Shown piece after piece: positions 21,364 to 48,669 of a stretch of 64,000 nt of DNA. The stretch is from assembly GCF_018398315.1 (NCBI RefSeq), contig NZ_JAHBRW010000002.1:976637-1040636 (forward strand). The letters are read 5' to 3'. Under the pieces are notes generated by a model, which saw only the letters and a program-made list of their open reading frames with translations, searched no databases and was not told the DNA's origin. Made by a program: the position numbers and the translations under genes. This DNA is from Chelatococcus sp. YT9 (lineage in GTDB: Bacteria > Pseudomonadota > Alphaproteobacteria > Rhizobiales > Beijerinckiaceae). Position 1 is the stretch's first letter. Each line of letters opens with the position of its first letter.

Positions 21364-21376
21364 ATTGTCATACAAT
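21364..21376. promoter_or_regulatory. operator palindrome, site 1 (molybdenum hydroxylase-GntR operon / hydrolase)
   Basis: ATTGTCATACAAT is a perfect inverted repeat of ATTGT with a 3-nt spacer. It lies 26 bp upstream of the large-subunit start and 138 bp upstream of the divergent hydrolase gene, so one site could serve both. Because the GntR gene is in the leftward operon, this would be the autoregulatory site. Confidence 0.7.
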
Positions 21377-21514
21377 TATATGCTTGATCGAGCTTATGCA
21401 AGCCGCATCGCGATGTGGCTGCAATTGAAGAGCAGGCCACACCGGCTTGCTACGGCGGCCACGAGCAACTGCGCCATTTCAATAAGGCTCATAGAAACAG
21501 GAGCTTAGTAAGCG

Positions 21515-22618
21515 ATGCTGAACATTTTTCCGGGCGAGCGCGATTGGGCAATCCAGACGGAGCGGCTGATTGCTCAGGCCGCCTATCGGGGCTCCGATAT
21601 CTTTGAATGCGACCGTGCCGCAAAGCGCATCAAGGAAGGGGACTTCGAAAGCTTCCACCATGAATGGCACGAACTCGGCCGCGAGACCGAGGAGGCGGGA
21701 CGCAAGGCGCTTGAGGCCGGCGACATCGAGACCGCGAAGTACCGGCTCTATCGCGCCTCAAATTATTATCGCCACGCCGATTTCTTCCTGCTCGGTACAG
21801 ACGAGCGGAAAATCGCCAATTTTCGTAAGACAAAACGCTGCTTCGAAGATGCAATTAAGTATGATGCCGATCGGGTCGAAGCCGTTCAGGTGACCTGCGG
21901 CGCCGACATCTATGACGGTTACTATGTCTTTCCGAAGAAGGGCAAAGAAAAGTCGCCGGCCGTGCTTATGCTTGGCGGCGCGGATTCGCTGGCAGAGGAA
22001 ATCTTCTTCTGGGGAACTCAGGAGTTGGCCGACCGCGGCATCGGCGTGCTGATTCTGGATACCCCCGGCCGCGGCTCGAGCCTGCGACTGCGGCACATCC
22101 ATTCCCGCCCGGACTACGAAGTTCCGGTGAAGGCGGCGATTGATTACTTGGAAGCCCGGCCTGATGTGGATCCGGATCGGATCGGCTGTGTCGGCGTTTC
22201 CATGGCGGGGTATTATGCGCCGCGCGGCACTGCTTTCGAGCCGCGTATCAAGGCGTTGGTGCTTTGGTGTGCCTGCTATGACATCCTAGAAGAGCTCTAC
22301 AATTTCTACCCGCCGATCCAGAAGCAGATCCAGTGGATCCTCGGCGTCGACAACGACGCGCAAGCGCGCGAAAAGCTCAAGGATTTCAACATGAAGGGCA
22401 TCGCGCACCAGATCAGGTGCCCGACGCTGATCTCGCACGGCGCCGGCGATGTTGTGATGGACGTCAAGGGCGCGCGTCGCCTCTACGACGAGATCGGAAG
22501 CACTGACAAGGTTCTGAAGATCTGGGAAGGCGACGAGGGCGGCGCCGTCCATTGCAACTACGATAACTGGTCTATCTCCATCCCCTTCATGTTCGATTGG
22601 CTCGCTAAACGCCTGTGA
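21515..22618 (+). CDS. alpha/beta hydrolase similar to 2,6-dihydroxypseudooxynicotine hydrolase
   Basis: A 367-residue hydrolase with a helical N-terminal domain (about 1-130, including YRLYRASNYYRHADFFLLG) and an alpha/beta-hydrolase core. The nucleophile elbow is GVSMAG with Ser229; an acid (Asp in SHGAGDVVMD) and His346 complete a plausible triad. The helical lid plus core and the overall length match the carbon-carbon hydrolase of bacterial nicotine breakdown (DHPONH) and the related FrsA/DUF1100 group. It is divergent from the molybdenum hydroxylase operon and shares its operator. In nicotine pathways the same two enzyme types work one after the other, so a similar order is inferred here. 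Confidence 0.82.
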   Translation: MLNIFPGERDWAIQTERLIAQAAYRGSDIFECDRAAKRIKEGDFESFHHEWHELGRETEEAGRKALEAGDIETAKYRLYRASNYYRHADFFLLGTDERKIANFRKTKRCFEDAIKYDADRVEAVQVTCGADIYDGYYVFPKKGKEKSPAVLMLGGADSLAEEIFFWGTQELADRGIGVLILDTPGRGSSLRLRHIHSRPDYEVPVKAAIDYLEARPDVDPDRIGCVGVSMAGYYAPRGTAFEPRIKALVLWCACYDILEELYNFYPPIQKQIQWILGVDNDAQAREKLKDFNMKGIAHQIRCPTLISHGAGDVVMDVKGARRLYDEIGSTDKVLKIWEGDEGGAVHCNYDNWSISIPFMFDWLAKRL

Positions 22619-22629
22619 TAGCCGTTGAG

Positions 22630-22654
22630 GGATGGCGGGATCAGCCCGCCATCC
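22630..22654 (+). terminator. 10-bp perfect stem-loop after the hydrolase gene
   Basis: GGATGGCGGG pairs fully with CCCGCCATCC around a 5-nt loop, starting 12 bp after the hydrolase stop. No U-rich tail follows; instead operator site 2 begins two bases later. It probably ends or attenuates the hydrolase transcript just before the next promoter. Confidence 0.65.
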
Positions 22655-22655
22655 G

Positions 22656-22668
22656 ATTGTAAGACAAT
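22656..22668. promoter_or_regulatory. operator palindrome, site 2 (AA_synth-enamidase operon)
   Basis: ATTGTAAGACAAT is a perfect ATTGT/ACAAT inverted repeat with a 3-nt spacer, 68 bp upstream of the next start codon. It is the same design as sites 1 and 5. Confidence 0.7.
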
Positions 22669-22736
22669 ATGAAGAATGCTAAGAGGGGATATGACATGTG
22701 GCGAGTGCGCGCGAGCGCCCCTCTGGAGAGCAGGCA

Positions 22737-23315
22737 ATGGAATTGACCATCAGACGGTCTTTCACGATCGTTGAAGACAGGATGATCGACGAGGGAAAGA
22801 AGGCCGATCTCATCCAACGCAAGGCAGCTTGTGTGCTCGTCGTGGCCAATCCCTTCGTCGGCCGCTATGTCGAGGACCTCGGTCCGCTGATCGACGCCAG
22901 CGTGTCACTTGGCGAGCGGCTTGGGCAGATGGTCGTGGCGGCCATGGGTGACTACTCCGTCCAAGGTTATGGAAAAGGCGGGCTGGTCGGGCTCGGCGGC
23001 GAGCAGGAGCATGCCAACGCCCTGTTGACGACCGTCTTTGCCAATCCGATCCGCGAGGCTGTCGGGGGCGGCAAGTCCTGGATTTCGTCGTTCCAGAAGC
23101 GAGTGCCGCCAGGCATGCAGATCGACATCCCGATGGCCTGCAAGGATGCGCTTTACGTCCGCTCGCATTACGACGGCATGACGCTCATGCTTCCCGATAC
23201 GCCCGCGCCCGACGAGATCGCAGTCATCTTCTGTGTGACCAATCGCGGGCGCATCAATGCGCGCGTCGGCGGCATCAAGCACGAGGAGATGCGCGGCGTG
23301 GACGGACTGGTTTGA
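22737..23315 (+). CDS. amino acid synthesis (AA_synth/DUF1185) family protein
   Basis: A 192-residue protein starting at 22737 (MELTIRRSF) after a GGAGAG site. Recognised blocks are VVANPFVGRYVEDL, GKGGLVGLGGEQEHANALLTT, GGGKSWISS and MACKDALYVRSHYDG, which characterise the AA_synth family. No reaction is firmly established for the family, despite the name. It is followed 18 bp later by an enamidase gene and is likely co-transcribed with it, so a role in ring or amide processing of the same compound is inferred. Confidence 0.8.
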   Translation: MELTIRRSFTIVEDRMIDEGKKADLIQRKAACVLVVANPFVGRYVEDLGPLIDASVSLGERLGQMVVAAMGDYSVQGYGKGGLVGLGGEQEHANALLTTVFANPIREAVGGGKSWISSFQKRVPPGMQIDIPMACKDALYVRSHYDGMTLMLPDTPAPDEIAVIFCVTNRGRINARVGGIKHEEMRGVDGLV

Positions 23316-23333
23316 CAGCGAGCGGGGAACAGC

Positions 23334-24530
23334 ATGCGGGTTGCAATCACCAACATCGGCAGGATCGTGTCGGGAAACTGGCGAGCCCCCTTCGCGGCGG
23401 GCGACACGCTGATCCTCGACAACGGCCTGATCAGCCACGTGGGCACCGCTTCGCCGGAGCTCATGAAAGATTGCGACGTGACGGTGGACGCCGCCGGCAC
23501 GGTCGCCATGCCAGGGCTGATCGATTCGCATGTGCACATCACCTTCGGAGACTACACGCCGCGCCAAAAGACGGTGGGCTTCCTCGAGAGCTATGTCCAC
23601 GGCGGCACGACGACGTCGATTACCGCGTCGGAAGTGCATGTCCCCGGCCGGCCGAAGGACCGCGACGGGGTAAAGGCGCTGGCGGTGGCCGCTCACAAGA
23701 GCTTCAAGGATTATCGGCCGGGCGGCATGCGGGTGCACGCCGGGTCCATCATCCTCGAACCCGACCTGGTTGAAAGCGACTTCGCCGATATTGCCGCCAA
23801 GGGGGTTTGGCTCGCCAAGGCCGGCTTCGGTGCTTTTGCCACGCCCTACGGCTACATCGAACAGGTGCGTTGGGCGAAGGAGGCCGGCATGGTCACGACC
23901 GTGCACACGGGCGGCTCCTCCATTCCCGGCTCTTCCGGCATCTGGGCGGACCATGTCATCGCGATGGACGCGGATGTGTCCTTCCATGTCAACGGCGGGC
24001 CCGTCGCCATGCCCGATGCCGATTTCGCGCGACTGGTCGATGAGAGCCGCATCGCGCTGCAATGCTGCACGGCGGGCAATCTGCGCACGCTCTTGATGGT
24101 CGCCGATCTGGCCGTGAAGGCCGAGTGCTTCGACCGGCTGCTTGTGGCCACGGACACGCCGACGGGCAGTGGAATCATGCCGCTCGGCATGTTCTACACG
24201 ATCACCCACCTCGCTAGCCTCGGCAAGATGCCGGTGGAATGGGCGATCGCCGCCGCCACGGGCAACAATGCTGCCGTTTACCGGCTGAACAGCGGAATCA
24301 TTGCGCCGGGGCGCGATGCGGACGTGCTCCTGATCGACGCATGCGCCGGCGGCGCCAAGAATGACGCGCTCTCAGCCATCGCCAATGGGGACGTACCGGC
24401 GGTCTCGGCCGTCTTCACCGATGGTGTGCCGCGCTTCGTCGGGCGCAGCCGGAACACTCCGGCCGGGATGCGCAGCGTGCGCGTGGCCGAGAGCCGCATC
24501 ATGCAGGACTTCAGCGCCGCCACGCATTGA
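23334..24530 (+). CDS. enamidase-like amidohydrolase (cyclic amide hydrolase)
   Basis: Metal-dependent amidohydrolase of 398 residues. It carries the HxH pair in DSHVHI (about residue 64), a metal/active-site His in VHTGGSSIPGSS, a further His in FHVNGGP and an Asp in TDTPTGSG. The blocks GDYTPRQKT and VPGRPKDRDG strongly resemble, from memory, the enamidase of anaerobic nicotinate breakdown in Eubacterium barkeri, which opens the lactam ring of 6-oxo-tetrahydronicotinate. A similar ring-opening of a partly reduced cyclic enamide is therefore proposed; the exact substrate is unknown. It sits between the AA_synth and alcohol dehydrogenase genes. Confidence 0.85.
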   Translation: MRVAITNIGRIVSGNWRAPFAAGDTLILDNGLISHVGTASPELMKDCDVTVDAAGTVAMPGLIDSHVHITFGDYTPRQKTVGFLESYVHGGTTTSITASEVHVPGRPKDRDGVKALAVAAHKSFKDYRPGGMRVHAGSIILEPDLVESDFADIAAKGVWLAKAGFGAFATPYGYIEQVRWAKEAGMVTTVHTGGSSIPGSSGIWADHVIAMDADVSFHVNGGPVAMPDADFARLVDESRIALQCCTAGNLRTLLMVADLAVKAECFDRLLVATDTPTGSGIMPLGMFYTITHLASLGKMPVEWAIAAATGNNAAVYRLNSGIIAPGRDADVLLIDACAGGAKNDALSAIANGDVPAVSAVFTDGVPRFVGRSRNTPAGMRSVRVAESRIMQDFSAATH

Positions 24531-24555
24531 AGTGGTCATCGCCAAGGGAGGAATC

Positions 24556-25644
24556 ATGAGGATCGAGGCGGCCATAGCCTATCCGGAGACTGAGCGGTTC
24601 GTGCTCGCTTCGGTCGAACTGGAAGAGCCGCGCGAGACCGAAGTCATGGTGCGGCTGGTCGCCACCGGCATCTGTCACACCGACCTCAAGATGCTGCACA
24701 CGCCGGGAACGGTGCCTCGCCCAATCGTGCTGGGCCACGAGGGAGCGGGCATTGTCGCGAAGGTGGGGTCAGGCGTCACCAAGGTGAAGCCCGGGGACCA
24801 TGTCGTGATGAGCATCAATTCTTGTGGCCACTGCGGCAATTGCCGGCAGTCCATGCCCTCCTATTGCGAGGACCTTTTTGCGCGCAATTTCAGCGGCACG
24901 CGGCCGGATGGAACGACCGCGTTGGCACGCGAGGGTGAGCACCTCTACAGCCATTTCTTCGGTCAGTCCTCGCTTGCTACCTATTGCATCGCGACCGAGC
25001 GCAATGTCATCCCTGTGCCGCATGACCTTCCGCTGGAAACGCTCGCGCCGCTGGGGTGCGGCATCCAAACAGGGGCTGGCGCCATCCTCAACGTATTGAA
25101 GCCGCAGCCGGGGTCGTCCATCGCCATTGCCGGAACGGGGCCAGTGGGCCTCAGCGCCATCATGGCCGCGAAGCTATCCGGGGCGACCACGATCGTCGCG
25201 GTCGACACGCGCGACAGCCGGCTGGAGATGGCGCGCGAAATGGGCGCCACCCATGCGGTCAATCCGGTCGGTCAAGACCTGACGGCCGCGATCCGCGCCG
25301 CATCTGGCCCGACCGATTGGGCCCTCGACACGACTGGTAATGTCGACGTGGTCAACGGCCTTGTCGCCGCGCTCAACCCGCGCGGCACATGCGGCGTGGT
25401 GTCCAACGGCCGTTCGGCGACCCCGATCAACTTCCACCCCCTGATCTTCGGCGGCCGCTCGATAACCGGGATAGCGCAGGGTGGCGCTGACCCTGAAAGC
25501 TTTATCCCACGCATGATCGCGCTGCACCGTGAGGGAAAGTTTCCCTTCGACCGCATGATCACCCGCTATGCCTTCCGCGACCTCAACAAGGCTTGTGACG
25601 ACGCCATGTCGGGTGAGGTTCTGAAGCCCGTCGTGATTTTTTAG
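24556..25644 (+). CDS. zinc-dependent alcohol dehydrogenase (MDR family)
   Basis: A 362-residue medium-chain dehydrogenase. The start at 24556 follows GGGAGG; the longer open frame is a shadow of the enamidase gene. Catalytic zinc ligands are in [11 protein letters not shown] (Cys) and GHEGAG (His-Glu). The structural zinc site has four cysteines in [15 protein letters not shown]. The NAD(P) fold begins [12 protein letters not shown], and an Asp (VAVDTRDS) at the end of strand 2 favours NAD. The sequence resembles aryl-alcohol dehydrogenases. With the aldehyde dehydrogenase downstream it could take an alcohol product to the acid. Confidence 0.92.
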
Positions 25645-25718
25645 CGGGTCCGTCGTGCGCCGCTGAGGAAGGTCGCGCGGTTTGCGCGTGGGACCACGCA
25701 TGAAAGCGAGTTTCTTGG

Positions 25719-26357
25719 ATGAGCATGCTTGGCATTGGCGACACCGCCCCTGACTTCCACGCTGAAACATCAGAGGGGCCGATCGACTTCTACGACTTTG
25801 CGGCCGACGGCTGGGTGGTGCTGTTCTCGCATCCACATTTCTTCCGGCCCGTTTGCGTGTCGGAAATGGGACAGGCATCGAGACTGGCGCCGGATTTCGT
25901 GGCGCTCGGCTGCAAGCTCCTGGCGGTCACTGTCGATCCACTCGATCGCTTCGAAGACTGGCAGGCCGATATCGTCAAGTCCGAGGCGACCGGCATACGT
26001 TTTCCGGTGGTCAGTGATCCGGAGCGACAGGTCACAGCACTCTACGGCCTGATCCACCCGGCCATGAGCCCCGAAGCGCCGACCCGCTCGGCTTATATCA
26101 TCGATCCGCAGCGCAGGGTGCGCGCGCTGCTTGCTTTCCCCTCCAGCATGGGGCGCGACTTCGCCTACATCCTGACACTCGTCAATTCGCTGCAGCTGAC
26201 CGACCGCGCCAAGGTAGCGTCACCCGCGGGTTGGCGTCCCGGTGACGAGATGGCGATCGTACCCGGCCTGTCCGCGGAGGAACTGTCAAGCCGTTTCCCG
26301 GCCGGCTGGCGGGAGGCCACACCCTATCTGCGCTACGTGCAGATCCCGTCGAAATAA
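25719..26357 (+). CDS. peroxiredoxin-like protein (Prx6/AhpE type) with altered active site
   Basis: A 212-residue thioredoxin-fold protein of the 1-Cys Prx6 group: opening GDTAPDFHAETSEG, core block GCKLLAVTVDPLDRFEDWQADI and the C-terminal dimerisation part with WRPGDEMAIVPGLS. The peroxidatic cysteine is kept in FFRPVCVSEMG, but the invariant Thr of the PxxxTxxC motif is Arg. This Thr positions the peroxide, so the protein may be a poor peroxidase or have another role. The start could equally be the in-frame ATG at 25725, which has a slightly better upstream purine run. It is 74 bp after the alcohol dehydrogenase, probably the end of that operon. Confidence 0.85.
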   Translation: MSMLGIGDTAPDFHAETSEGPIDFYDFAADGWVVLFSHPHFFRPVCVSEMGQASRLAPDFVALGCKLLAVTVDPLDRFEDWQADIVKSEATGIRFPVVSDPERQVTALYGLIHPAMSPEAPTRSAYIIDPQRRVRALLAFPSSMGRDFAYILTLVNSLQLTDRAKVASPAGWRPGDEMAIVPGLSAEELSSRFPAGWREATPYLRYVQIPSK

Positions 26358-26386
26358 CCCCGGGAGTTGACAGCGGCGCGCTGCGT

Positions 26387-26405
26387 ATGATTGTATGGCA
26401 ATCAT
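26387..26405. promoter_or_regulatory. operator palindrome, site 3 (aldehyde dehydrogenase operon)
   Basis: ATGATTGTATGGCAATCAT has 7-bp arms (ATGATTG/CAATCAT) around the shared core ATTGTATGGCAAT, one base off the consensus. It ends 19 bp before the ATG, so a bound repressor would block initiation directly. Confidence 0.7.
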
Positions 26406-26424
26406 AAACAAGGCGGGATAGACC

Positions 26425-27852
26425 ATGGACGCTAGGCAGTTCTACATCGACGGCGCGTGGGTCGATCCGCTCACCGCCTCCCGGCCTTTCGCGATCGTTA
26501 GCCCGCTCACCGAGCAGCAGTCCGGTGAGCTGATCCTGGGGTCGGCGGCCGATGTCGATCGTGCCGTTACCGCCGCGCGCAAGGCCCTGCCCGAATGGGC
26601 CGCGTGGTCTCGCGCGGAGCGCATGGCCATCCTCGATCGCATCGTCAGGTGCTACAACCGTCGCATCGACGAGGTCGCCCGCGTTATTGCCGAGGAGATC
26701 GGCGCGCCCCTTTGGTTCGCCCGCGACGTGCAGGCCGTCGGCGTTGCCACGCAGTTCAGCGTGATGCGCCGCATCCTCGAGACCTACGCGTTCGAGCATT
26801 ACATCGGCACGACGTTGATCCGGCGTGAGCCCTTCGGCGTCTGCGGCCTGATTACCGCCTGGAACTGGCCACTGAACCTGATCGCCGGGAAGCTGGCGCC
26901 GGCACTCGCCACCGGCTGCACCGTCGTCCTGAAGCCCAGCGAATATGCGCCGCTGAGCACACTGATCCTCACCGAGGTTCTGGAGGAGGCCGGCCTTCCC
27001 AAGGGCGTCTTCAATATGGTGCAGGGAACCGGCGCCGAAGTCGGCGAGGCGATCGCGGGGCATTCGGGCATCGATATGGTGTCGATCACCGGTTCCACCC
27101 GCGCTGGCGCCCTGGTTGCCAAGGCTGCCGCGGACACGGTCAAGCGCGTGCACCAGGAACTCGGCGGCAAGTCGGCCCACATCATCACGGCGGATGCCGA
27201 TCTGCAAGATGCCGTGCCCTGGGGCGTGGCGCGCTCGTTCATGAATTCCGGCCAGTCGTGCGAGGCACCGACCCGCATGCTGGTGCACCGCGACCAACTG
27301 GAGACGGTCAACGACCTCGCCAGGAAGGCGGCAGAGACCTACACGCTCGGTCACCCGTTCGATGACAACACCAAACTCGGACCACTGGTCAACGCGATCC
27401 AGTTCGAGCGCGCACAGGACCTGATCCAGTCCGGCATCGACCAGGGCGCGACGCTGGTTACCGGCGGCATCGGGCGGCCGGCCGAGCTCAACAGCGGCTA
27501 CTTCGTCAAGCCGACCGTCTTTTCCGATGTGAAACCCGACATGCGGATCGCGGTGGAGGAGATCTTTGCGCCGGTGCTGTCGATCATGCCCTATGAGACG
27601 ATCGACGAGGCGGTCGAGATCGCCAACAGCTCAGTCTACGGGCTGGCCGCCTATGTTCATGGCGAACACACCCACGCGACTGAACTTGCCTGCCGCCTGC
27701 AAGCCGGCAGGGTCTACATCAACGGCGCGGCCTCGCAATCCGACGTGCCGTTCGGCGGCTACAAGCAGTCCGGCAATGGACGGCAGAGTGGGATCTTCGG
27801 CTTCGAGGATTACCTCGAGATCAAGGCTGTCCTCGGCCATCGCAAATCCTGA
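26425..27852 (+). CDS. NAD(P)-dependent aldehyde dehydrogenase
   Basis: A 475-residue ALDH-superfamily enzyme. The cofactor and oxyanion residue region is TAWNWPLN (Asn), the general base is Glu245 in QELGGKSAH, the nucleophile is Cys279 in NSGQSCEAPTRM, and the C-terminal IFAPVLSIMPY and FGGYKQSGNGRQSG are standard. Length and order fit a substrate-broad aliphatic/aromatic ALDH. It is the first gene behind operator site 3 and is followed 13 bp later by a flavin monooxygenase. It probably oxidises an aldehyde intermediate of the island pathway. Confidence 0.95.
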   Translation: MDARQFYIDGAWVDPLTASRPFAIVSPLTEQQSGELILGSAADVDRAVTAARKALPEWAAWSRAERMAILDRIVRCYNRRIDEVARVIAEEIGAPLWFARDVQAVGVATQFSVMRRILETYAFEHYIGTTLIRREPFGVCGLITAWNWPLNLIAGKLAPALATGCTVVLKPSEYAPLSTLILTEVLEEAGLPKGVFNMVQGTGAEVGEAIAGHSGIDMVSITGSTRAGALVAKAAADTVKRVHQELGGKSAHIITADADLQDAVPWGVARSFMNSGQSCEAPTRMLVHRDQLETVNDLARKAAETYTLGHPFDDNTKLGPLVNAIQFERAQDLIQSGIDQGATLVTGGIGRPAELNSGYFVKPTVFSDVKPDMRIAVEEIFAPVLSIMPYETIDEAVEIANSSVYGLAAYVHGEHTHATELACRLQAGRVYINGAASQSDVPFGGYKQSGNGRQSGIFGFEDYLEIKAVLGHRKS

Positions 27853-27865
27853 GGGAGACCGGACC

Positions 27866-29224
27866 ATGCACGATCGCAAGAAGATGAAGCTTGCCATGAT
27901 GTGGTTCGCGCCAGGTTCGCACGGCGCGGGCTGGCGCATGCCGGGTGCCGCGCGCTCTACCGTGACGCAGTTCGAGACCTATGTCGAAGTCGCCAAGAAA
28001 TGCGAACAGGCCAAGCTCGACGCCCTTTTCTTCGCCGATAGCAACGCCATCCAGCCGACGCCGCTGATCGAGAAGCGCGACAAGGCGGCGGAAAAGTTCT
28101 ACCGCGCGGCAATCATCGAGGCCATGTCCGTGATCCCGGCGCTGGCCGCCGTGACCTCGAAGCTCGGTCTAATCGCCACCGGCACGACGACTTACAACGA
28201 GCCCTACACGATCGCGCGCCGCTTCGCGACGATAGATCTGATCAGCAAGGGCCGAGCCGGCTGGAATCTGGTCACCTCGCAGCACGAGAACGAGGCGCAG
28301 AATTTCGGTTTCGAAAAGCACATGGAGCACGACGAGCGCTATGTGCGGGCGGAAGAGTTCTTCGACGTGGTCACCGGGCTGTGGAACAGTTGGGACGCGG
28401 ACGCCTTGGTCGAGGACAAGGAGAATGCACGCTATTTCGACGTAGAGAAGGTGCATGTCCTCAATCACAAGGGCAAGTACTTCAACGTCAAGGGGCCGCT
28501 CAACGTGCCGCGCTCACCCCAGGGGCGGCCGATCATCGTGCAGGCAGGGTCGTCCGGCCCCGGCCGCAATCTTGCCGCCAGGATTGCCGACCTTGTATTC
28601 TCCGCAAACTCCACTCTTGAAGAGAGCAAGGCCTTCACTGACGATTTGAAGGCGCGCGCAGTGGCCTGCGGCCGCTCGGCCGATGCGGTCAAACTGATGC
28701 CGGGCTTCATGCCAATCATTGGCCGAACAGAGGCGGAGGCAAAGGAACATTACCTGCAGCTGCAGTCTCTGATTACCGATGAGCAGGCGCTGATCGCGAT
28801 CAGCCGCTTCGCTGGCGGCGTCGACCTGTCGCAATATCCGCTCGACGGCCCCTTGCCGGAGTTGCCCACTGTCAACGGCGCCCAGACGCGCCAGCAGATC
28901 ATGATCGAGACGGCGCGGCGCGAAAATCTCAGCATCCGCCAGATAGGCCGGCGCTTTGCAGAGTCGCTCGGCCACAATTTAGTCTGGGGCACGCCGGCGC
29001 AGGTGGCCGACATCATGGAAGATTGGTTCAGCAAGGGAGCCTGTGACGGGTTCTGCATTCTGCCGCCCTATTTCCCACGTGGCGTGGACGATTTTACGGA
29101 CCTCCTCGTGCCGGAATTGCAGCGCCGTGGCTTGTTCCGCACCGAATACGAGGGCTCGACGTTGCGGGAGAACCTCGGGTTGCCTGATCCGGTCCATACG
29201 AAACGGGTCATGGCTGACGCGTAG
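27866..29224 (+). CDS. NtaA/DszA-family flavin-dependent monooxygenase (1)
   Basis: A 452-residue luciferase-like oxygenase. The start at 27866 follows GAGGGAG; the open frame upstream is a shadow of the ALDH gene. Family blocks include MMWFAPGSHGAGWRMP, LDALFFADSN, TYNEPYTIARRFATID, GRAGWNLVTS, NHKGKYFNVKGPLN and IIVQAGSSGPG. These match the NtaA/SnaA/DszA group, two-component monooxygenases that use FMNH2 made by a separate reductase and cleave C-N or C-S bonds or open rings. No flavin reductase gene is present nearby. It is paralogous to the gene at 31963. Confidence 0.92.
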   Translation: MHDRKKMKLAMMWFAPGSHGAGWRMPGAARSTVTQFETYVEVAKKCEQAKLDALFFADSNAIQPTPLIEKRDKAAEKFYRAAIIEAMSVIPALAAVTSKLGLIATGTTTYNEPYTIARRFATIDLISKGRAGWNLVTSQHENEAQNFGFEKHMEHDERYVRAEEFFDVVTGLWNSWDADALVEDKENARYFDVEKVHVLNHKGKYFNVKGPLNVPRSPQGRPIIVQAGSSGPGRNLAARIADLVFSANSTLEESKAFTDDLKARAVACGRSADAVKLMPGFMPIIGRTEAEAKEHYLQLQSLITDEQALIAISRFAGGVDLSQYPLDGPLPELPTVNGAQTRQQIMIETARRENLSIRQIGRRFAESLGHNLVWGTPAQVADIMEDWFSKGACDGFCILPPYFPRGVDDFTDLLVPELQRRGLFRTEYEGSTLRENLGLPDPVHTKRVMADA

Positions 29225-29247
29225 CCACGCCCGCTCCGTCCGAGAAT

Positions 29248-29260
29248 ATTGTATTATCGT
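29248..29260. promoter_or_regulatory. degenerate operator, site 4 (P450 operon)
   Basis: ATTGTATTATCGT keeps the left half-site ATTGTAT of the shared operator but not the right arm. With flanks it reads ATATTGTATTATCGTATG, very close to site 8 read in reverse (ATATTGTATGATTCTATG), which argues that both are real. It lies 54 bp upstream of the P450 start. Confidence 0.5.
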
Positions 29261-29314
29261 ATGCTAGAAGCGCTCAGCGCTACGCGTCCCTTACAAGGAC
29301 CGCCGGAGGTCGCT

Positions 29315-30547: not shown

Positions 30548-30548
30548 A

Positions 30549-30743: not shown

Positions 30744-30746
30744 GCC

Positions 30747-31937: not shown

Positions 31938-31962
31938 GCCGTTCGCGACAAGGGGAGACGTC

Positions 31963-38199: not shown

Positions 38200-38239
38200 G
38201 ATGCTCACCCGCATTCGGCACCGGGCGTCGGTGCAGTTG

Positions 38240-38252
38240 ACTGTCATACATT
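38240..38252. promoter_or_regulatory. operator, site 6 (Liv importer 2, divergent)
   Basis: ACTGTCATACATT matches the shared operator with one changed base in each arm. It is centred between the binding-protein gene (40 bp away) and the permease operon (35 bp away) and can control both directions. An AT-rich run (TTAATATAATAT) follows. Confidence 0.55.
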
Positions 38253-38287
38253 AATATAATATCCGAAATGACGCAACGTGTGGCAGC

Positions 38288-40820: not shown

Positions 40821-41542
40821 GCCTTGCCGTCACCGATCTGCACGCAGATATCGCTGCTAAGCCGATCCTGCAGGGCCTGTCGCTCCGAATCGCGCCGGGC
40901 GAAGTGGTCGCGCTGATCGGCAGTCCCGGCTGCGGCAAGAGCACGCTGATGCGTGCGATCTTCGGCCGCCATCCGGTGATATCGGGCCGCGTGGAGTATG
41001 AGGGCAAGAGCACGCTGGAGCGCAGCCCGGCCGAGCAGATCAGGGCGGGCATCGCCTATGTGCAGCAGGGCGGCAAGGTCTTTCGCAGCTTGAGCGTTAC
41101 GGAGAACCTCGCGCTCGCCGCCATGATGCTGCCGGGAACGGAGGCTTCGGGTCGGATCGGTGAGCTTTACACGCTTTTCCCGCGTCTGGCGGAGCGACGT
41201 GGCCAAGCGGCCGGCTCGCTGAGCGGCGGCGAGCGCCAGATGCTCGCGCTGTCGATGGGAATGATGACCCGGCCGAGCCTCATCCTGCTCGACGAGCCCT
41301 CGACCGGGCTCTCGCCGCTGATGACCGAGCGCATTCTGGGCGAGGTCAGATCTGCGGCGAAATCGTCCGGCGCCGCCGTGTTGGTGGTGGAGCAGAATGT
41401 CCGCAATGCCGTCTCGATTGGCGACCGCGTGCTGGTGATGAGCCGCGGCATCATCGCCCATGACCACGCCGTCTCCCCAGACGCCGACCTTGCGGAGCTG
41501 CTTGAGGCCTATTCCTTTACGTCGACCGCCCGCAACACCTGA
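40817..41542 (+). CDS. Liv-type ABC transporter ATPase, LivF type (2)
   Basis: A 241-residue ATPase from the ATG at 40817 (MSLAVTDLHADIAAKPILQ), in an ATGA overlap; the longer frame upstream is a shadow. Walker A is GSPGCGKST, an unusual Ser-Pro-Gly-Cys version. The signature is LSGGERQMLALSM, Walker B is LILLDEPSTGLSP and the switch is VEQNVRNAV. The LivF block VQQGGKVFRSLSVTENLAL is clear. Confidence 0.92.
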   Translation: MSLAVTDLHADIAAKPILQGLSLRIAPGEVVALIGSPGCGKSTLMRAIFGRHPVISGRVEYEGKSTLERSPAEQIRAGIAYVQQGGKVFRSLSVTENLALAAMMLPGTEASGRIGELYTLFPRLAERRGQAAGSLSGGERQMLALSMGMMTRPSLILLDEPSTGLSPLMTERILGEVRSAAKSSGAAVLVVEQNVRNAVSIGDRVLVMSRGIIAHDHAVSPDADLAELLEAYSFTSTARNT

Positions 41543-41593: not shown

Positions 41594-42052
41594 ATGAACA
41601 TGTCCGGCAGCAACGAGATCAGCGCGCCGCGCGAGGCGGTATGGACGGCGCTGTTCAACCCTGAGGTGCTGAAGGCGTGCATCCAAGGCTGTGAGGCGCT
41701 GGAACAGGTGTCCGACAATGAATATACCGCGACCGTCACCATCAAGATCGGCCCGGTCAAGGCGCGGTTCCAGGGCAAGGTCAGCATCGCGGACGCCACT
41801 GCCGGCGAGCAGTGCCGGCTGGTCGGCGAAGGCTCGGGCGGCATCGCCGGCTTCGCCAAGGGTTCCGCGCTGGTCAAGCTCCGAGACGCACCAGGCGGCA
41901 CGGTGATCGATTATGAAGTCGAGTCACAGATCGGCGGCAAGCTTGCCCAGCTCGGTGCGCGCATGATCAATTCCGCCGCCGTCCGGATGGCAAGCGACTT
42001 TTTCACCAAGTTTGCGGACGTCGCTGAAACCGCGAGCGCCGCGTCTCGATAG
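41594..42052 (+). CDS. CoxG-like SRPBCC family protein
   Basis: A 152-residue START/SRPBCC-fold protein of the carbon-monoxide-dehydrogenase subunit G family. Marks are APREAVWTALFNPEVLKACIQGC, the strand block ATVTIKIGPVKARFQG and VESQIGGKLAQLGARMI. CoxG-type proteins accompany CoxLMS molybdenum hydroxylases and have been linked to membrane recruitment or maturation, and more recently to lipid or quinone delivery. Here it lies 20 kb from the hydroxylase genes but in the same regulated island. It follows the ATPase by 51 bp. Confidence 0.9.
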   Translation: MNMSGSNEISAPREAVWTALFNPEVLKACIQGCEALEQVSDNEYTATVTIKIGPVKARFQGKVSIADATAGEQCRLVGEGSGGIAGFAKGSALVKLRDAPGGTVIDYEVESQIGGKLAQLGARMINSAAVRMASDFFTKFADVAETASAASR

Positions 42053-42115: not shown

Positions 42116-42128
42116 AATGTATGACAAT
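42116..42128. promoter_or_regulatory. operator palindrome, site 7 (first Dpp binding protein)
   Basis: AATGTATGACAAT differs from the shared operator by one base in the left arm. It lies 195 bp before the chosen start of the binding-protein gene, implying a long leader or a further promoter element. Confidence 0.6.
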
Positions 42129-42323
42129 AATCCAATCATGCAGCTGAGAGCTTGATGGCCGGACAAGAAGAACGGGCCACGTGGGGAGCACGGTTGGAGT
42201 AGCGCGCCACCCCGGCAGTGGGAAACGGTTGCCTCGGGCCAACAGCTTCCTTTCGCTCAACGAGGGAACGGATCGAGGGTGCATCTTCGCGGATCAGCAA
42301 ACCCTCTGCACGGGAGTATCGAG

Positions 42324-43946
42324 ATGGCCGAATACAACTGGAGTGCGCTCGCAATGGACCGCCGCCGCTTCGTAACCGGAACGCTCACGGCATCGGCCAC
42401 GCTGATGGCGCCACGGTTCGCCGACGCACAACAGCCGACCACATTGGTGGGCGTGCTTGAGGAGGATCCGCCCGGGTTCAACTCTGCCATTACCAGCACG
42501 ATCTCGACCTTCGCGACCAGCTCACCCGTCCATCAGGGCCTGACGCTGATCATGGCGGACGGCACGATCGAGCCGCTGCTCGCCAAAAGCTGGGAGATCT
42601 CGCCCGATGGCCTCACTTACACGTTTCATCTGCGCGACGACGTGATGTGGCATGACGGACATCCCTTCACCTCGGCCGATGTCAAGTTCTCGATCGAGAA
42701 TGCCAATGGCAAGCTGCATCCCTGGGGCAAGGTCGCCTACAAGCCGCTGAAGGCGATTGAGACGCCGGATGACCACACCGTGATCTACCGCTTGAGCGCG
42801 CCATCGGCCTCGCTGATGTCGGCGACCGACCGCGCCGTCGGCGCCATCATCCCGAAGCATCTGTGGGAGGGCAAGAATATTGCCACCGACCCTCTCAACC
42901 AGAAGCCGGTCGGTACCGGCCCCTATAAGCTGGTCGCTTACGAGCGCGGCAAGGAAGTGCGCTATGAGCGCAATCCCAACTACTTCATCAAGGGCGCGCC
43001 ACTGGTCGATCAGCTGATCTTTCGCATCATGCCTGACCCCGCGACACGCATTTCCGCGCTCCAGCAAGGCGAGGTCGACATGATCTACTGGAACGCGCTG
43101 CCGCAGTCGGAAGTCGCGCGTCTATCCAGGCTGCCAAACCTGCAGATCACTAAGTCGCCGAACCGCGGCGCCGCCTATCAGGCAGTGTACAACCTGAAGA
43201 ACCAGTATCTGGGCAACAAGGACGTCCGGAAGGCCTTCGCCCACGCGATCGACCGCAAGTTCATCCGCGAGAGTGTCGATGGCGGCTTGACCTCGTCGGA
43301 GCAGCTCGGCCCCGTCTCGCCGGCCTCGCCGCTCTACAACAAGGCGCTGAAGGACTACGCGTTCGATCCAGCGCTCGCCAATAAGCTCCTCGATCAGGCT
43401 GGCTTCCCCAGAGGGGCAGACGGCAACCGCTTCACCATCGAGATCGCATGGCCCTCCTTCAACGTCGCAGCCGGCAAGATCGCGGACATCATCAAGCAGA
43501 ATCTCGCCGCCGTCGGTGTCGGCGTGAAGCTATTCTCCGCCGACCGCGCCGCGATGATCCAGCGGTGCTACGTCGGCGGCCAGTTCGACATAGCGATCGA
43601 GGCCCATGCCATCGGGCCGGACCCGGACATCGGCACGGAGCGCTTTTACAATTCGCGCAACATCCAGCCACTGCCCTACGTCAACAATTCGAGCTACGTC
43701 AATGCCGAGGTCGATAAACTGTTCGACGAGCAGCGCTCGCTCATCGATCTCGACAAACGCAAGGTCGTCTACGACAAGATTCAGGAGATTATCTGGGACG
43801 ATCTGCCAATAATGGCGCTTTACCAGGTCGTTTTCAACAACGTATCGCGTAAGCAGTATGCCGTCGACATCTTCGAGGATAATGGCAACGGTACCTGGGA
43901 ATCCTTCGATCGCGCGAAGATTGTGGGCGTCCACACCAAAGCTTGA
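42324..43946 (+). CDS. Dpp/opine-type ABC transporter substrate-binding protein (A)
   Basis: A family 5 binding protein of 540 residues. The start at 42324 has a CGGGAG ribosome site; MDRRRFVTGTLTASATL follows shortly and looks like a Tat-type signal (RRxFV), with cleavage near FADAQQ. Family marks are PLLAKSWEISPDGLTYTF, RDDVMWHDGHPFTSADV, TGPYKLVAYERG and KNQYLGNKDVRKAFAHAIDR. It is closely similar to the gene at 48670. It precedes the Dpp permease/ATPase set by 183 bp. Confidence 0.92.
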   Translation: MAEYNWSALAMDRRRFVTGTLTASATLMAPRFADAQQPTTLVGVLEEDPPGFNSAITSTISTFATSSPVHQGLTLIMADGTIEPLLAKSWEISPDGLTYTFHLRDDVMWHDGHPFTSADVKFSIENANGKLHPWGKVAYKPLKAIETPDDHTVIYRLSAPSASLMSATDRAVGAIIPKHLWEGKNIATDPLNQKPVGTGPYKLVAYERGKEVRYERNPNYFIKGAPLVDQLIFRIMPDPATRISALQQGEVDMIYWNALPQSEVARLSRLPNLQITKSPNRGAAYQAVYNLKNQYLGNKDVRKAFAHAIDRKFIRESVDGGLTSSEQLGPVSPASPLYNKALKDYAFDPALANKLLDQAGFPRGADGNRFTIEIAWPSFNVAAGKIADIIKQNLAAVGVGVKLFSADRAAMIQRCYVGGQFDIAIEAHAIGPDPDIGTERFYNSRNIQPLPYVNNSSYVNAEVDKLFDEQRSLIDLDKRKVVYDKIQEIIWDDLPIMALYQVVFNNVSRKQYAVDIFEDNGNGTWESFDRAKIVGVHTKA

Positions 43947-44129
43947 CCAGACATGGCATGGGCTGGCCTGCGAACATGTGTAGGCCAGCCCGACGGCAAT
44001 ACTAGACACGACGGCGTCGCCGCATGCCGCGTCGCGCTCTCGATAGCTATGGTTTTCGCGGTCCAATCGTCGGTAGCGGCCGGTGCATGCAGGTGCTGAC
44101 GCCACCAACACCGCCCACGGAGTTTGCTG

Positions 44130-45101
44130 ATGACGATGAGCTTACCGGGATTGGTACTGAACAGGGTCCTGCTGGGCATCCCGACCCTGCTCATCATCGT
44201 CACGGCTACCTTCGTGTTGATCCGGCTGGCGCCGGGTGATCCGGCGCTTATCCTGGCGGGCGATGCTCCGACCCCGGAATTCCTGGCCGCGATCAACGAG
44301 CGCTACGGGCTTGACCGGCCAATCCTCGAACAGCTCCTGATCTTCCTCGGCCAAGCAATCCGGTTCGATCTGGGCACCTCAATCTACTACCAGCAGCCCG
44401 TCGTCGACGTCGTGCTGCAGCGCGCCCCGGCTACCATCATCCTTACGGCCTCCGCGATCCTGGTGGCGGCCCTGGCAGGCGTCATCTTCGGCGTCTGGGC
44501 CGCGCGCCACAAGGGCACCAACATCGATGCCGGGGTCGGCCTGGCCTCGCTGCTCGGCTACTCGCTCCCCGCCTTCTGGCTCGGCCAACTCCTGATTTTG
44601 CTGTTTGCGGTGCAGCTTAACATTCTCCCCGCCGGCGGCATGACCACCGCGCGCATTCAACTGTCGGGTGCCGCCTACTATCTGGACGTCGCGAGGCACA
44701 TGGTACTTCCGGTGCTAACGCTCGCCACCTTCGAACTCGGCCTGATCGCGCGGTTTACGCGCACCGCAATGGTCGAAGCCTTGGGGCGTGACTATGTGCT
44801 CGTCGCGCGCGCCAAGGGCGGGCGCATGAACTACGTGGTCTGGAAACACGCGTTCCCGAACGCCATCGTCACCACGATCACCATCGTCGGGCTGGAGTTC
44901 GGCGTGCTGCTCGGTGGCGCTGTGGTGACGGAGACGGTGTTCAGCTGGCCGGGCATCGGGCGCCTGTTCTACGACGCCATCCTGCGCCGCGACTTCCCGC
45001 TGTTGACCGGTTGTTTCATTTTGTCGTCGATCGCCGTCATCGTGATCAACCTGATCACCGATCTGCTCTGCGCCATCCTCGACCCGCGGACCAGGAGGTA
45101 G
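44130..45101 (+). CDS. ABC transporter permease, DppB type (2)
   Basis: A 323-residue permease started at ATG 44130 (MTMSLPGLVLNRVLLGIP) behind CACGGAG. The family motif FVLIRLAPGDPA is at about residue 30, the EAA loop region is RDYVLVARAKGGRMNYVVWKHA (in pieces), and the end is YDAILRRDFPL plus ILDPRTRR. It forms the pore with the DppC-type protein that starts 3 bp downstream. Confidence 0.93.
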   Translation: MTMSLPGLVLNRVLLGIPTLLIIVTATFVLIRLAPGDPALILAGDAPTPEFLAAINERYGLDRPILEQLLIFLGQAIRFDLGTSIYYQQPVVDVVLQRAPATIILTASAILVAALAGVIFGVWAARHKGTNIDAGVGLASLLGYSLPAFWLGQLLILLFAVQLNILPAGGMTTARIQLSGAAYYLDVARHMVLPVLTLATFELGLIARFTRTAMVEALGRDYVLVARAKGGRMNYVVWKHAFPNAIVTTITIVGLEFGVLLGGAVVTETVFSWPGIGRLFYDAILRRDFPLLTGCFILSSIAVIVINLITDLLCAILDPRTRR

Positions 45102-45104
45102 GAC

Positions 45105-45977
45105 ATGGCGGACGCCATCACCCCCGTTCAGACAGGTGCCAAGGCCCGCTTCCGCCTGCCGCGCGTGACCTGGTTCAAGCTGACGCCTTCTGCTGTGATC
45201 GGCTTGACCGGGCTCACCTTCATCCTTGGACTAGCGGTGCTCGGACCCTTTCTGTGGCCGATCGATCCGCTGGCGATAAGCCGCGACAGCTTCATGCCGC
45301 CGAGCCTTGCTCATCCGATGGGAACGGATGATCTTGGCCGCGACATCCTCGCCCGCGCCATTCAGGGCGCACGCATTTCACTCGTAATCGGCATGATGGG
45401 CGCCTGCGTCGCCGCGTTAACAGGAACGCTGGTCGGAGCCGTCGCAGGCTATGCCGGCGGCATGGTCGACGAGCTCCTGATGCGCATGACCGAGATCTTC
45501 CAGGTCGTGCCGCGCTTTCTGCTCGCCATCATCGTCATGGCACTCTACGGCGCCAGCCAGACGAGCATCGTGCTGGTGATCGGCTTCCTGGCCTGGCCTG
45601 GCACGGCGCGCGTGGTGCGCGCCCAGTTCATGATCCTGCGCGGCGAGGAATTCGTGCTGGCTGCACGCATGAGCGGGGCGAGCCGCAGCCGCGTCGTCCT
45701 GCGCCACATCCTGCCCAATGTCGCGCCTTACCTCATCGTCTCGGTCTTCCTCCAGATGGGCGCGGCGATCTTGGTGGAATCCTTCCTGAGCTTCATAGGC
45801 CTCGGCGATCCGTCGTCGCCGAGCTGGGGGCTGCTCCTCCAGCAATACCAGCTCTATCTGCAGTCGGCCTGGTGGATGACCACTTTCCCGGGCCTGCTTC
45901 TCGCGATCACCATCTTCAGCCTCAATCTCTTGGGCGACAGTTTCAGCACCGCACGTCATAGCGGCACCCGGCGATAA
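45105..45977 (+). CDS. ABC transporter permease, DppC type (2)
   Basis: A 290-residue permease starting after an excellent ribosome site (AGGAGG). It has the DppC motif MGTDDLGRDILARAIQGAR (about residue 67), the EAA loop EFVLAARMSGASRSRVVL and SFIGLGDPSSPSWGLLL. An ATPase gene follows after 10 bp. Confidence 0.94.
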   Translation: MADAITPVQTGAKARFRLPRVTWFKLTPSAVIGLTGLTFILGLAVLGPFLWPIDPLAISRDSFMPPSLAHPMGTDDLGRDILARAIQGARISLVIGMMGACVAALTGTLVGAVAGYAGGMVDELLMRMTEIFQVVPRFLLAIIVMALYGASQTSIVLVIGFLAWPGTARVVRAQFMILRGEEFVLAARMSGASRSRVVLRHILPNVAPYLIVSVFLQMGAAILVESFLSFIGLGDPSSPSWGLLLQQYQLYLQSAWWMTTFPGLLLAITIFSLNLLGDSFSTARHSGTRR

Positions 45978-45987
45978 GGAGACGATC

Positions 45988-47034
45988 GTGTCAGATCGCA
46001 CGCAACCCTCTGAGGCGGTGCTTTCCATCAACGGACTGACCACTGCCTTTCCGACACCTTATGGCGAGTTCAAGGCGGTCGACAACGTCACTCTTGAAGT
46101 ACGCGCGCATGAACGCGTGGCCGTTGTGGGTGAGTCCGGCTCGGGCAAGTCGATGCTGATGCTGTCGATTCTGCGGCTTGTGCCGGAGCCCGGCAAGATT
46201 GTTGCGGGGGAAGTCTGCTTCGATGGCCGCGACATTGCCGCCATTAGTGCCCGCGACATGGCGGACCTGCGCGGAAGCGAGATCGCGCTGATCTTTCAGG
46301 ATCCGATGTCGTCATGGAACCCGGTCAAGCGCATCGGCCAGCAGATCGCCGAGGCGATGAAGCTGCACCGCAAGATCGAGCGCAAGAGCATCCGCGACCG
46401 CGTCGTCGATCTCTTACGCAAGGTCGGCATTCCCTCGCCCAAGGAGCGTGCGAGGTCCTATCCGCACGAGTTCTCGGGCGGCATGCGCCAGCGCGGCATG
46501 ATCGGGATGGGCCTTTCCAACAATCCCAAGCTCCTGATCGCCGACGAGCCGACCACCGCGCTCGATGTCACCGTGCAGGATCAGGTGATCCGACTGCTGC
46601 GCGACGTCAATGAGCAGTACGGCACCGCACTTATCCTGATCACGCACAATCTGGCGCTGGTCGCGAGCCTCGCAGAGCGCGTCGTGGTCATGTATGCCGG
46701 CCGCGTCATGGAAAGAGGTACGGCCGAGCAGATTTTCCGCGCACCCCAGCATCCCTATACCTGGGGCCTGCTGCAGTCAGTGCCGCGCATCGACCAGGAT
46801 TCCGGGCAGGACCTGATTGGCATCCCGGGCTCGCCCCTTGACAACAGCCAGAAGATCGCCGGGTGCAAGTTCAATCCCCGCTGCCGGTTCAAGATCGACC
46901 GCTGCATGGTGGAGGAGCCGGGGCTGATCCCGGTTGGAGACGGTCAGGTCGCCCGCTGCTGGGTGATGATGAAGAACACGGCGTTTCAAAAAGATGATCA
47001 TGCAACCAATCAAGCCAGCCACGCCACTGCTTGA
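45988..47034 (+). CDS. ABC transporter ATPase, DppD type (2)
   Basis: A 348-residue ATPase with a GTG start at 45988 behind AAGGAG. Walker A is GESGSGKSM, the signature is [12 protein letters not shown], Walker B is [12 protein letters not shown] and the H-loop is ITHNLA. The oligopeptide C-terminal extension with Cys residues ([14 protein letters not shown]) is complete. The 3' end overlaps the DppF-type gene by about 41 bp, more than elsewhere in the operon. Confidence 0.93.
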
Positions 47035-48010
47035 GGCCACAGGCCTCTCCAAGCAGTTCCCGCTCGCGCGCGGCTTTGGCCGCAAAACCATCCTGCGCGC
47101 CGTCGACAACGTCACGATGCACATCAACGCCGGTGAGACGCTCGGTCTGATAGGCGAATCCGGCTGCGGCAAGTCCACGCTGGGTCGCATGATCTCGCAG
47201 CTCATGGACCCGAGCAGCGGCACCATCCGCTTCGACGGGCAAGATATCAGCCAGCTGCCGCGGCCTGAGCGACGGCGCGTGCGACAGCAGATTCAGACGA
47301 TCTTCCAGGATCCCTACAGTTCGCTGAATCCGGTCATGACGGTGCGCGATATCATCGCGGAGCCCTTGCGCAATTTCGATGTGGCAAAGGGGCCGGACGC
47401 CGACCGCAAGATCCGTGAGGTGCTCGACCTCTGTGGCATCCCAGCCAGCGCGATGATCAAGTACCCGCGCGAATTCTCCGGCGGCCAGCGCCAGCGCATT
47501 GGCATCGCGCGAGCCCTCGTGCTCAAGCCCCGCTTCATCGTTGCCGACGAGCCGGTATCCGCACTTGACGTGTCGATCCAGGCGCAGATCGTCAACTTCC
47601 TTCGCGATCTGCAGCGCGAGTTCAAGCTGTCCTACCTGTTCATCGGCCATGACATGGCCGTGGTGCGGCACATCTCCCACCGCGTTTCTGTGATGTATCT
47701 CGGTCGCATCGTCGAGACCGCACCCTCCTCGCGCATCTATGCCGATCCGCGACACCCCTACACGCAGGCCTTACTAAGTTCGGTGCCGATCCCCGATCCG
47801 GCTCGTGAAGCCAAGCGCCAGGCGAAGGAACTGAAGGGCGAGATCCCGTCGCCGCTCGCCCCGCCACCCGGCTGCCATTTCAATCCGCGCTGCGCCATCG
47901 CCGACCTGGCAATCTGCACCGCATCCGTGCCGCCGCTCACTGGCCTGACGCCAGACCACCAAGCGGCCTGCCATCTCCAGGAGCGCGCCAAAGTGCTCCC
48001 GGCCGCGTAA
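46994..48010 (+). CDS. ABC transporter ATPase, DppF type (2)
   Basis: A 338-residue ATPase; ATG 46994 or the in-frame ATG at 47000 may start it. Walker A is GESGCGKST, the signature is FSGGQRQRIGIARAL, Walker B is FIVADEPVSALD and the H-loop is IGHDMAVV. The C-terminal CHFNPRCAIADLAIC completes the family pattern. It closes the permease/ATPase block that lies between two related binding-protein genes. Confidence 0.93.
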   Translation: MIMQPIKPATPLLEATGLSKQFPLARGFGRKTILRAVDNVTMHINAGETLGLIGESGCGKSTLGRMISQLMDPSSGTIRFDGQDISQLPRPERRRVRQQIQTIFQDPYSSLNPVMTVRDIIAEPLRNFDVAKGPDADRKIREVLDLCGIPASAMIKYPREFSGGQRQRIGIARALVLKPRFIVADEPVSALDVSIQAQIVNFLRDLQREFKLSYLFIGHDMAVVRHISHRVSVMYLGRIVETAPSSRIYADPRHPYTQALLSSVPIPDPAREAKRQAKELKGEIPSPLAPPPGCHFNPRCAIADLAICTASVPPLTGLTPDHQAACHLQERAKVLPAA

Positions 48011-48669
48011 ATCGACCGGCGCTCGAGTGAGGTGTAGACCTGGGGCGGTCCAGGCGGAAGCGGTACTTCCTGATGGAACCCAACTGAGTTGGCGGAAAGT
48101 AGGTTCAGGCTAACGCCCGCGCGTTTGACGTATTCGCCCCGCCCGTAGCCTGACGCGGCCATAGACAACCGGCACTCTCGGGTCCCGTTCCTCACGCTGA
48201 AGATGGCGGGCCGCTGACCGCAGCGAAGACAAGATTGCCTTTACCGGCGCTTAGCGGCCGGTAGTCGTAGGAGGCGCGCCGCACGCATGACCAGACCGAG
48301 ACCGGCCCCCCGCTGGCCGGGTATCCTCCTCACTAAAAACCAACCGGCCCATCACCGCGACGCGGAAGCTCCAGTCCTCAATGCTGTCGAGCAAGCATCG
48401 CGGCGGGCGATACGGCTCAGGATCATCTCGCTCAAAGGCAGATTTCCCTCGACAGGTCGAAGAGGCCGGCGTCGTGATGAACAAGTGTCGTTAGCCAGCG
48501 ATATCTGCCGAAAAGCTCAGGCGGCGGAATGAGTTGGCGTGAGGCTCCAGCCATCACTCGATCTTCGGCCTGATCGAGATCGTAGATTGACATAGAATCA
48601 TACAATATGTAGCGTTTTAACGGATTGTTATAGCGTGGCGTGGACCGCGCGTAAGCTGGGGGATGTCAT
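48011..48669. other. intergenic region before the second Dpp binding protein
   Basis: About 659 bp with no recognisable gene. A 7-bp stem-loop (TACCGGC/GCCGGTA, 48242-48263) lies in the middle. The right end becomes AT-rich and carries operator site 8. Small open frames on both strands lack family resemblance. Confidence 0.5.
48589..48606. promoter_or_regulatory. degenerate operator, site 8 (second Dpp binding protein)
   Basis: CATACAAT at 48599-48606 is one intact half of the shared operator; the other arm (AGAAT) is degenerate. Read on the minus strand with flanks it is ATATTGTATGATTCTATG, nearly the same as site 4. It ends 63 bp before the start codon. Confidence 0.5.

Follow-up and report, generated by a model that had tools for sequence, protein, structure and literature searches.

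A putative palindromic operator and its candidate GntR-FCD regulator in a catabolic island of Chelatococcus sp. YT9

The window analysed here is a 64,000-nucleotide stretch of Chelatococcus sp. YT9 (C2:976637-1040636, contig NZ_JAHBRW010000002.1) within a genome of 6,741,503 bases (6.74 Mb). It carries a 30-odd-kilobase catabolic region, the island, in which the palindrome ATTGT-N3-ACAAT recurs between genes. A preliminary description of this DNA read eight strings as operators of one GntR regulon across 27 kb. Comparative evidence supports such a regulon; the string at 29248 and the genes for a LysR-type regulator and a PhyH-type dioxygenase fall outside it, and the regulon extends left, beyond the span given earlier, to a regulator gene at 16889. 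Genes and sites are collected in Table 1.

Table 1. Genes and putative operator sites of the island, in order of position (nt, nucleotides)
Feature	Position	Strand	Remarks and basis
GntR-FCD regulator, 236 aa	16889-17599	-	Pfam PF07729 2.8e-26, PF00392 1.6e-18
CoxS, CoxM, CoxL (molybdenum hydroxylase, three subunits)	17599-18078, 18075-18962, 18959-21337	-	Pfam
Operator 1	21364-21376		ATTGTCATACAAT; between CoxL (26 nt) and hydrolase gene (138 nt)
Alpha/beta hydrolase	21515-22618	+	related to 2,6-dihydroxypseudooxynicotine hydrolase, 2jbw 1.1e-21
Operator 2	22656-22668		ATTGTAAGACAAT; 29 nt ahead of PF06684 gene as called
PF06684 gene; amidohydrolase	22698-23315; 23334-24530	+	Pfam
Zinc alcohol dehydrogenase; peroxiredoxin	~24592-25644; 25719-26357	+	Pfam
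Operator 3	26390-26402		ATTGTATGGCAAT; 22 nt ahead of aldehyde dehydrogenase gene
Aldehyde dehydrogenase (ALDH); NtaA/DmoA-type flavin mononucleotide (FMN) monooxygenase	26425-27852; ~27902-29224	+	Pfam
Claimed operator, unsupported	29248-29260		ATTGTATTATCGT
Cytochrome P450	29261-30547	+	Pfam
Ferredoxin	30549-30743	+	translation (CCGAGQC...CP); between P450 and reductase
Ferredoxin reductase	30747-31937	+	Pfam
Second NtaA/DmoA-type monooxygenase	31963-33249	+	Pfam
LysR-type regulator	33425-34354	-	Pfam
PhyH-type dioxygenase	34564-35565	+	divergent from LysR; Pfam
Operator 4	35626-35638		ATTGTAATACAAT; 209 nt ahead of EamA transporter gene
EamA-family transporter	35848-36726	+	Pfam PF00892
livK (Liv-type importer)	37090 to ~38199	-	Pfam; start from translation
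Operator 5	38240-38252		ACTGTCATACATT; between livK (minus) and livHMGF (plus)
livH, livM, livG, livF (Liv-type importer)	38288-41542	+	Pfam
CoxG-like gene	41594-42052		Pfam
Operator 6	42116-42128		AATGTATGACAAT; 150 nt ahead of oligopeptide-type importer
Opp-type importer (binding protein, two permeases, two ATPases)	42279-48010	+	Pfam
Operator 7	48586-48606		two overlapping imperfect sites, 48586-48598 and 48594-48606; adjoins TTGACA; 63 nt ahead of second binding-protein gene
Second Opp-type binding protein; MFS transporter	48670-50265; 50610-51776	+	Pfam

The GntR-FCD protein exceeds the Pfam cut-offs for both of its domains, PF00392 (66.6 bits, cut-off 27) and PF07729 (92.8 bits, cut-off 24.3). 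It has the architecture of the FCD (FadR) subfamily of the GntR superfamily, an N-terminal GntR winged helix-turn-helix and a C-terminal FCD domain, as in FadR, PdhR and NanR. Its best NCBIfam match is PhnR of Burkholderia (TIGR03338, PhnR_burk; 2.1e-33), which at 115.7 bits is far below the equivalog cut-off of 271.5, and no phosphonate enzyme was found among the window proteins scanned. The genome contains 51 GntR-like matches including this one; the next best is 36% identical, so the regulator has no close paralogue. The preliminary description had named no gene for its GntR regulator; a GntR-type binder is likely, and the gene can now be placed. It closes a series of four adjoining genes on the minus strand, CoxL-CoxM-CoxS-GntR, the first of which begins beside the site at 21364. 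The four are probably read as one transcript, in which case the regulator would control its own synthesis.

The eight strings are present where the preliminary description put them, at 21364, 22656, 26390, 29248, 35626, 38240, 42116 and 48594. Its account of the arms is also correct: three are perfect (21364, 22656, 35626), two have one arm change (26390, 42116) and one has two (38240), and only one half is kept at 29248 and 48594. With up to three mismatches to the consensus ATTGTATGACAAT the window contains 16 matches, both strands counted so that the three palindromes enter twice, against a shuffle mean of 5.28; none of 100 shuffles reached 16. Across the whole genome ATTGTATGACAAT with at most one change occurs at five places, all in the island, and the exact palindrome ATTGTN3ACAAT at five places, three of them inside the window. 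Near-consensus sites are thus concentrated in the island. The loose palindrome was rejected as evidence, being uninformative with two mismatches in the window (15 matches against 10.28 in shuffles, with 8 of 100 shuffles as high, which is unremarkable) and with one mismatch in the genome. A consensus relative, AATGTATAACAAT, lies outside the island on the same replicon (G000 C2:1311285-1311297).

Because ATTGTATGACAAT itself came from the window, a matrix was built from other genomes only, using 32 distinct 23-mer sites. Patterns were searched genome-wide, and the full matrix was run on the window and, for background, on 400 kb sampled from the own genome. The five best window sites are 22656, 35626, 42116, 26390 and 21364, in that order, with scores from 24.7 to 13.3 against a background maximum of 12.0. 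Next come 48586 (sixth, 10.5), 38240 (seventh, 9.2) and 48594 (eighth, 8.7), while 29248 ranks twelfth (6.4), with 23 background matches as good. Seven operator regions are supported, five of them strongly, and the string at 29248 is not. The preliminary description noticed no site before 21 kb or beyond 49 kb. As far as strong sites go this is right; the best matches in those parts, 18071 (8.2) and 49410 (8.1), are both inside genes.

The matches could instead be AT-rich promoter fragments standing out in a GC-rich genome. The strings resembling TTGACA and TACAAT do look like promoter boxes, and the scores of 29248, 38240, 48586 and 48594 do not rise above the background. This reading is hardly credible for the group as a whole: the five strong sites exceed the entire background, and 500 trials with column-permuted matrices never reached the observed five matches at a threshold of 13.0 and reached the observed seven at 9.17 twice.

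Several points weigh against a regulon of seven operators. The palindrome with a free spacer and one arm change allowed is common, being found at 53 places in the genome, with 5 in the window by an ordered list of 50 of them that takes in the window. The sites 48586, 38240 and 48594 have 4, 5 and 8 equally good matches in the background, and the case for 38240 and 48586/48594 is built on their position and their conservation in one close relative. As for position, all supported sites are within the 9.1% of the 16889–51776 region that is intergenic as genes are drawn here. For 38240 this requires that livK starts at its signal peptide and not at the longest open reading frame (ORF) start; the listed ORF start (38247) falls within operator 5, and the signal-peptide start near 38199, taken from the translation, does not. 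In the 209 nt between operator 4 and the EamA gene (35639-35847), GGAGGGATG at 35659-35667 could start a short ORF.

The string at 29248 was rejected as an operator. In addition to its low matrix rank, it runs right up to the ATG of the P450 gene, where genes are tightly spaced, and is farther from the palindrome in the relative G002. Transcription of the P450 genes more probably starts from the ALDH promoter (26390), and 26425-33249 is likely one operon behind operator 3. Neither the LysR nor the PhyH gene has its own site; the best matrix score nearby is 3.4, at 34422.

The PF06684 gene at 22698 was searched in 149 genomes including the own, of which 32, with the own counted, have a match at 1e-40. 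Among the three genus mates only G002 has such a match. Since G001 and G003 have none at this threshold, they probably do not carry the island. In G002 the island is syntenic. Comparison of the upstream regions, which the preliminary description had suggested, shows that 21364, 22656, 26390, 38240 and 42116 are identical there over 13 bases, 38240 in its flanks as well. The site at 48594 differs by one base, and AATCATACAATATGTA of operator 7 is retained amid poorly conserved surroundings. The site at 35626 reads ATCGTCATACAAT in G002, with two differences, and is still one arm change from the palindrome. At 29248 the two differences raise the arm changes from three to four. Near-consensus places number six in G002, five of them in the island, with none in G001 and one in G003.

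Loci with related regulators show that operator and regulator clade are inherited together. The best 80 named loci from the regulator alignment comprise 47 at 47-58% identity and 33 at 27-41%. In 45 of the 47 close loci, the 1.6 kb upstream of the GntR match contain a site with no more than one arm change. Exact palindromes number 15, in 14 of these 47, and 3, in 3 of the 33 distant loci; 19 other permutations of the arm letters gave 0-1 each in the 47. The remaining two close loci, L063 and L079, have two-change strings only, and the 47 are not independent, many being from Mesorhizobium, although 32 distinct 23-mers remain; both facts reduce the force of the count. Both strings are weak evidence: that of L063 sits where other Mesorhizobium sites sit, and that of L079 could be chance. 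Our home-made ORF caller produced many antisense shadow ORFs in the GC-rich loci, and its output only guided the choice of proteins to compare with Pfam. At DNA level, plasmid relatives of the island amounted to 8 records, none covering 80%.

In G092, G074 and G052 a GntR protein of 52-56% identity is encoded beside PF06684 and amidohydrolase genes, with the site before PF06684. The converse, that the site is missing where a PF06684 locus has no close GntR, had to be softened. G143 (GntR 40%) has the core TTGTCATACAA before its PF06684 gene, overlooked by the one-mismatch filter, and L117 (GntR 41%) has an exact site.

A tree was made of 62 regulators: 57 from the 80 loci, the window, G074, G092 (two GntR proteins) and G143. 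Hand selection removed 23 of the 80 loci: 13 from the close group of 47, mostly near-copies, and 10 from the distant group of 33. A branch of 37 rows including the window has a support of 99/94, and 35 of these, all but L063 and L079, have a site with one change or none. The site label changes five times on the tree and not once, because L117, with its exact site, and L101, with a weak one, fall outside the branch; shuffled labels averaged 19.8 changes, and 0 of 500 shuffles were as low.

The clade has in common a recognition helix of about LCxxLG[VI]SRxS[VL]REALRSLEAE. It also departs from two FCD columns that are usually histidine and that we take to be metal ligands of many FCD domains. The first is Tyr in 37 of 37 clade rows against His in 20 of the 25 others, and the second is Met (35) or Leu (2) against His in 19 of 25; in the window regulator these are Tyr and Met at residues 150 and 194. 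The third histidine is kept in 34 of 37 clade rows, with three gaps. FadR itself is not known to bind a metal, and the histidines are not required of all FCD members. Palindromes of the FCD subfamily typically have a GT-N3-AC core, the FadR operator being TGGT-N3-ACCA. The window operator has the same core as that of FadR, but its arms are ATTGT and ACAAT.

Among plasmid records carrying a related GntR, 27 in all, five loci were examined, none of them used for the matrix. The three with 53-55% identity all exceed the background maximum of the own genome, with best scores of 21.1 in Shinella, 23.8 in Mesorhizobium WSM4875 and 15.7 in Agrobacterium vitis. WSM4875 (L155) has four strong sites, all above 17, at 4238, 8906, 12338 and 18526. 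They precede PF06684/GntR, an importer gene, a gene row for a dehydroquinase and hydroxylase, and a gene for a deacylase. The arrangement is that of a dispersed regulon, as in the island. The A. vitis plasmid (L156) has operator-like matches at 8835, 8867 and 8898, spaced 31-32 bp, between PF06684 and GntR, and one matrix match (11279) inside a gene. The two Leisingera plasmids, L157 (GntR identity 41.1%) and L158 (38.5%), gave no matrix match above 5.7. A different palindromic string is found upstream in them, GGTATACC and CATACAGTATG.

The GntR-FCD protein of 16889-17599 is, as far as these comparisons of sequence can tell, the likely binder of the palindrome. Another regulator might be proposed, for instance the LysR-type protein encoded inside the island or one of the 50 further GntR-like matches of the genome. 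This is very unlikely: the site follows the GntR clade across loci with quite different enzymes, the next GntR of the genome is only 36% identical, and the Leisingera relatives, at 38.5 and 41.1%, already lack the site.

These lines together make it quite probable that the island is a pyridine-type catabolic regulon governed by a local GntR-FCD repressor, through seven operators, and released by an inducer. The regulator would bind ATTGT-N3-ACAAT at seven intergenic places from 21364 to 48606 and repress by overlapping core promoters. Its targets would be its own hydroxylase operon, the hydrolase gene, the PF06684-amidohydrolase operon and the ALDH-monooxygenase-P450 operon, together with the EamA transporter, the Liv-type importer, and the Opp-type importer with the second binding protein. 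An intermediate formed as the imported compound is degraded would bind the FCD domain and free the DNA, so that import and breakdown are switched on together.

Repression is suggested because operator 1 overlaps a minus-strand TATAAT at 21375-21380 and because operators lie 22-40 nt before the ALDH, CoxL, PF06684, livH and livK starts. FadR-subfamily regulators, moreover, are mostly repressors. The same protein and sites could also activate some or all of the promoters. The distance from site to start does vary, from 22-63 nt at some genes to 138-209 nt at others, and a simple scan of 21000-40900 for sigma-70-like promoters found two promoter-like sites, against 3.7 in shuffles, with none at the operators. 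Given the TATAAT overlap, the short distances and the habit of the subfamily, we consider activation unlikely, and repression remains the preferred reading.

The gene set of the island fits the breakdown of a nitrogen heterocycle or alkaloid. A pyridine-type nitrogen heterocycle is the most likely substrate class, as the genes beside related regulators in Mesorhizobium and Leisingera suggest. CoxL has its best PDB matches in 4-hydroxybenzoyl-CoA reductase and nicotinate dehydrogenase, and matches 6-hydroxypseudooxynicotine dehydrogenase (7dqx) at 3.2e-75. In the alpha/beta hydrolase the GxSxxG serine aligns with that of 2jbw, and operator 1 is common to the genes of the molybdenum hydroxylase and this hydrolase. 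Both NtaA/DmoA-type monooxygenases are above the cut-off of TIGR03860, and the ferredoxin gene completes the P450 system in one gene row. Against this assignment, no PDB match to a window enzyme settles which compound is degraded.

The closest link to a known pathway comes from Mesorhizobium. In M. loti CJ3sym (L061) the genes facing the regulator match AAMS hydrolase (3kxp, 3.7e-166), MHPCO (3alj, 1e-255), PF06684 and Mlr6791 (2z7b, 2.7e-138). Among the loci grouped with L061, MHPCO and AAMS hydrolase matches are present in 33 of 33 and PF06684 in 32 of 33. From the PDB names and general knowledge of the pathway, we take a locus of this type to be a vitamin B6 (pyridoxine) degradation cluster. 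Its GntR (47-51% identity) belongs to the same supported branch as the window regulator, and the same operator precedes the regulator match by about 100-175 nt. The enzymes differ: the Mesorhizobium cluster uses MHPCO for ring cleavage and then the AAMS hydrolase, and the window has no match to either at 1e-15, having instead FMN monooxygenases, a P450, a molybdenum hydroxylase and an amidohydrolase. In other loci the regulator occurs with PF06684 and amidohydrolase, and variably with a flavin adenine dinucleotide monooxygenase, a UbiD-like protein, ALDH or a molybdenum hydroxylase. A literature search that covered few subscription papers found no paper on the Mesorhizobium regulator or its operator, nor on those of the window, and passages of PMC2954203, PMC7913881 and PMC4213383 do not deal with them either.

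The trigonelline (tgn) cluster contains a luciferase-type monooxygenase and an ALDH. In L157 and L158 of Leisingera the GntR gene is divergent from genes for PF06684, a hydrolase, a flavin reductase, an LLM oxidoreductase and ALDH. This layout resembles the trigonelline cluster, trigonelline degradation there being our guess from the layout, and these loci are without the window operator. The window island shares with the tgn cluster a protein of the PF06684 type, the family being related to TgnF, a helper in trigonelline breakdown, according to the available part of PMC7913881. The same part also describes a PF06684 protein in 7-hydroxycoumarin degradation; therefore the family alone is no proof of a pyridine substrate, a further point against the assignment. 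PF06684 has a chorismate-mutase-like fold and no proven function in what is accessible of PMC2954203. Because of this fold, the protein is perhaps a tautomerase.

The system is not of a new class; it is a well-delimited regulon with a link to vitamin B6 catabolism. Sequence alone was enough to name the regulator, the operator and the promoters of the proposed regulon in a large catabolic island that is still uncharacterised, and an operator is predicted for the GntR regulator beside the Mesorhizobium vitamin B6 degradation genes. PF06684, for which there are so far only guesses at a role, is tied to heterocycle catabolism through shared regulation, and the motif can be used to find further clusters. 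More speculatively, the clade, with its constant operator and an FCD pocket short of two customary histidines, may be a general switch for pathways that open pyridine rings. It would sense a ring-cleavage intermediate common to vitamin B6 breakdown, the island and related clusters, with PF06684 handling the intermediate or its product. If this is true, the operator would help to find unknown nitrogen-heterocycle pathways by genome mining.

To the right of the island, at 52532-62024 and without a strong operator, a second gene set encodes a sugar-type ABC importer, an SDR protein, two UxuA/TIM-barrel proteins and an RraA-like protein.

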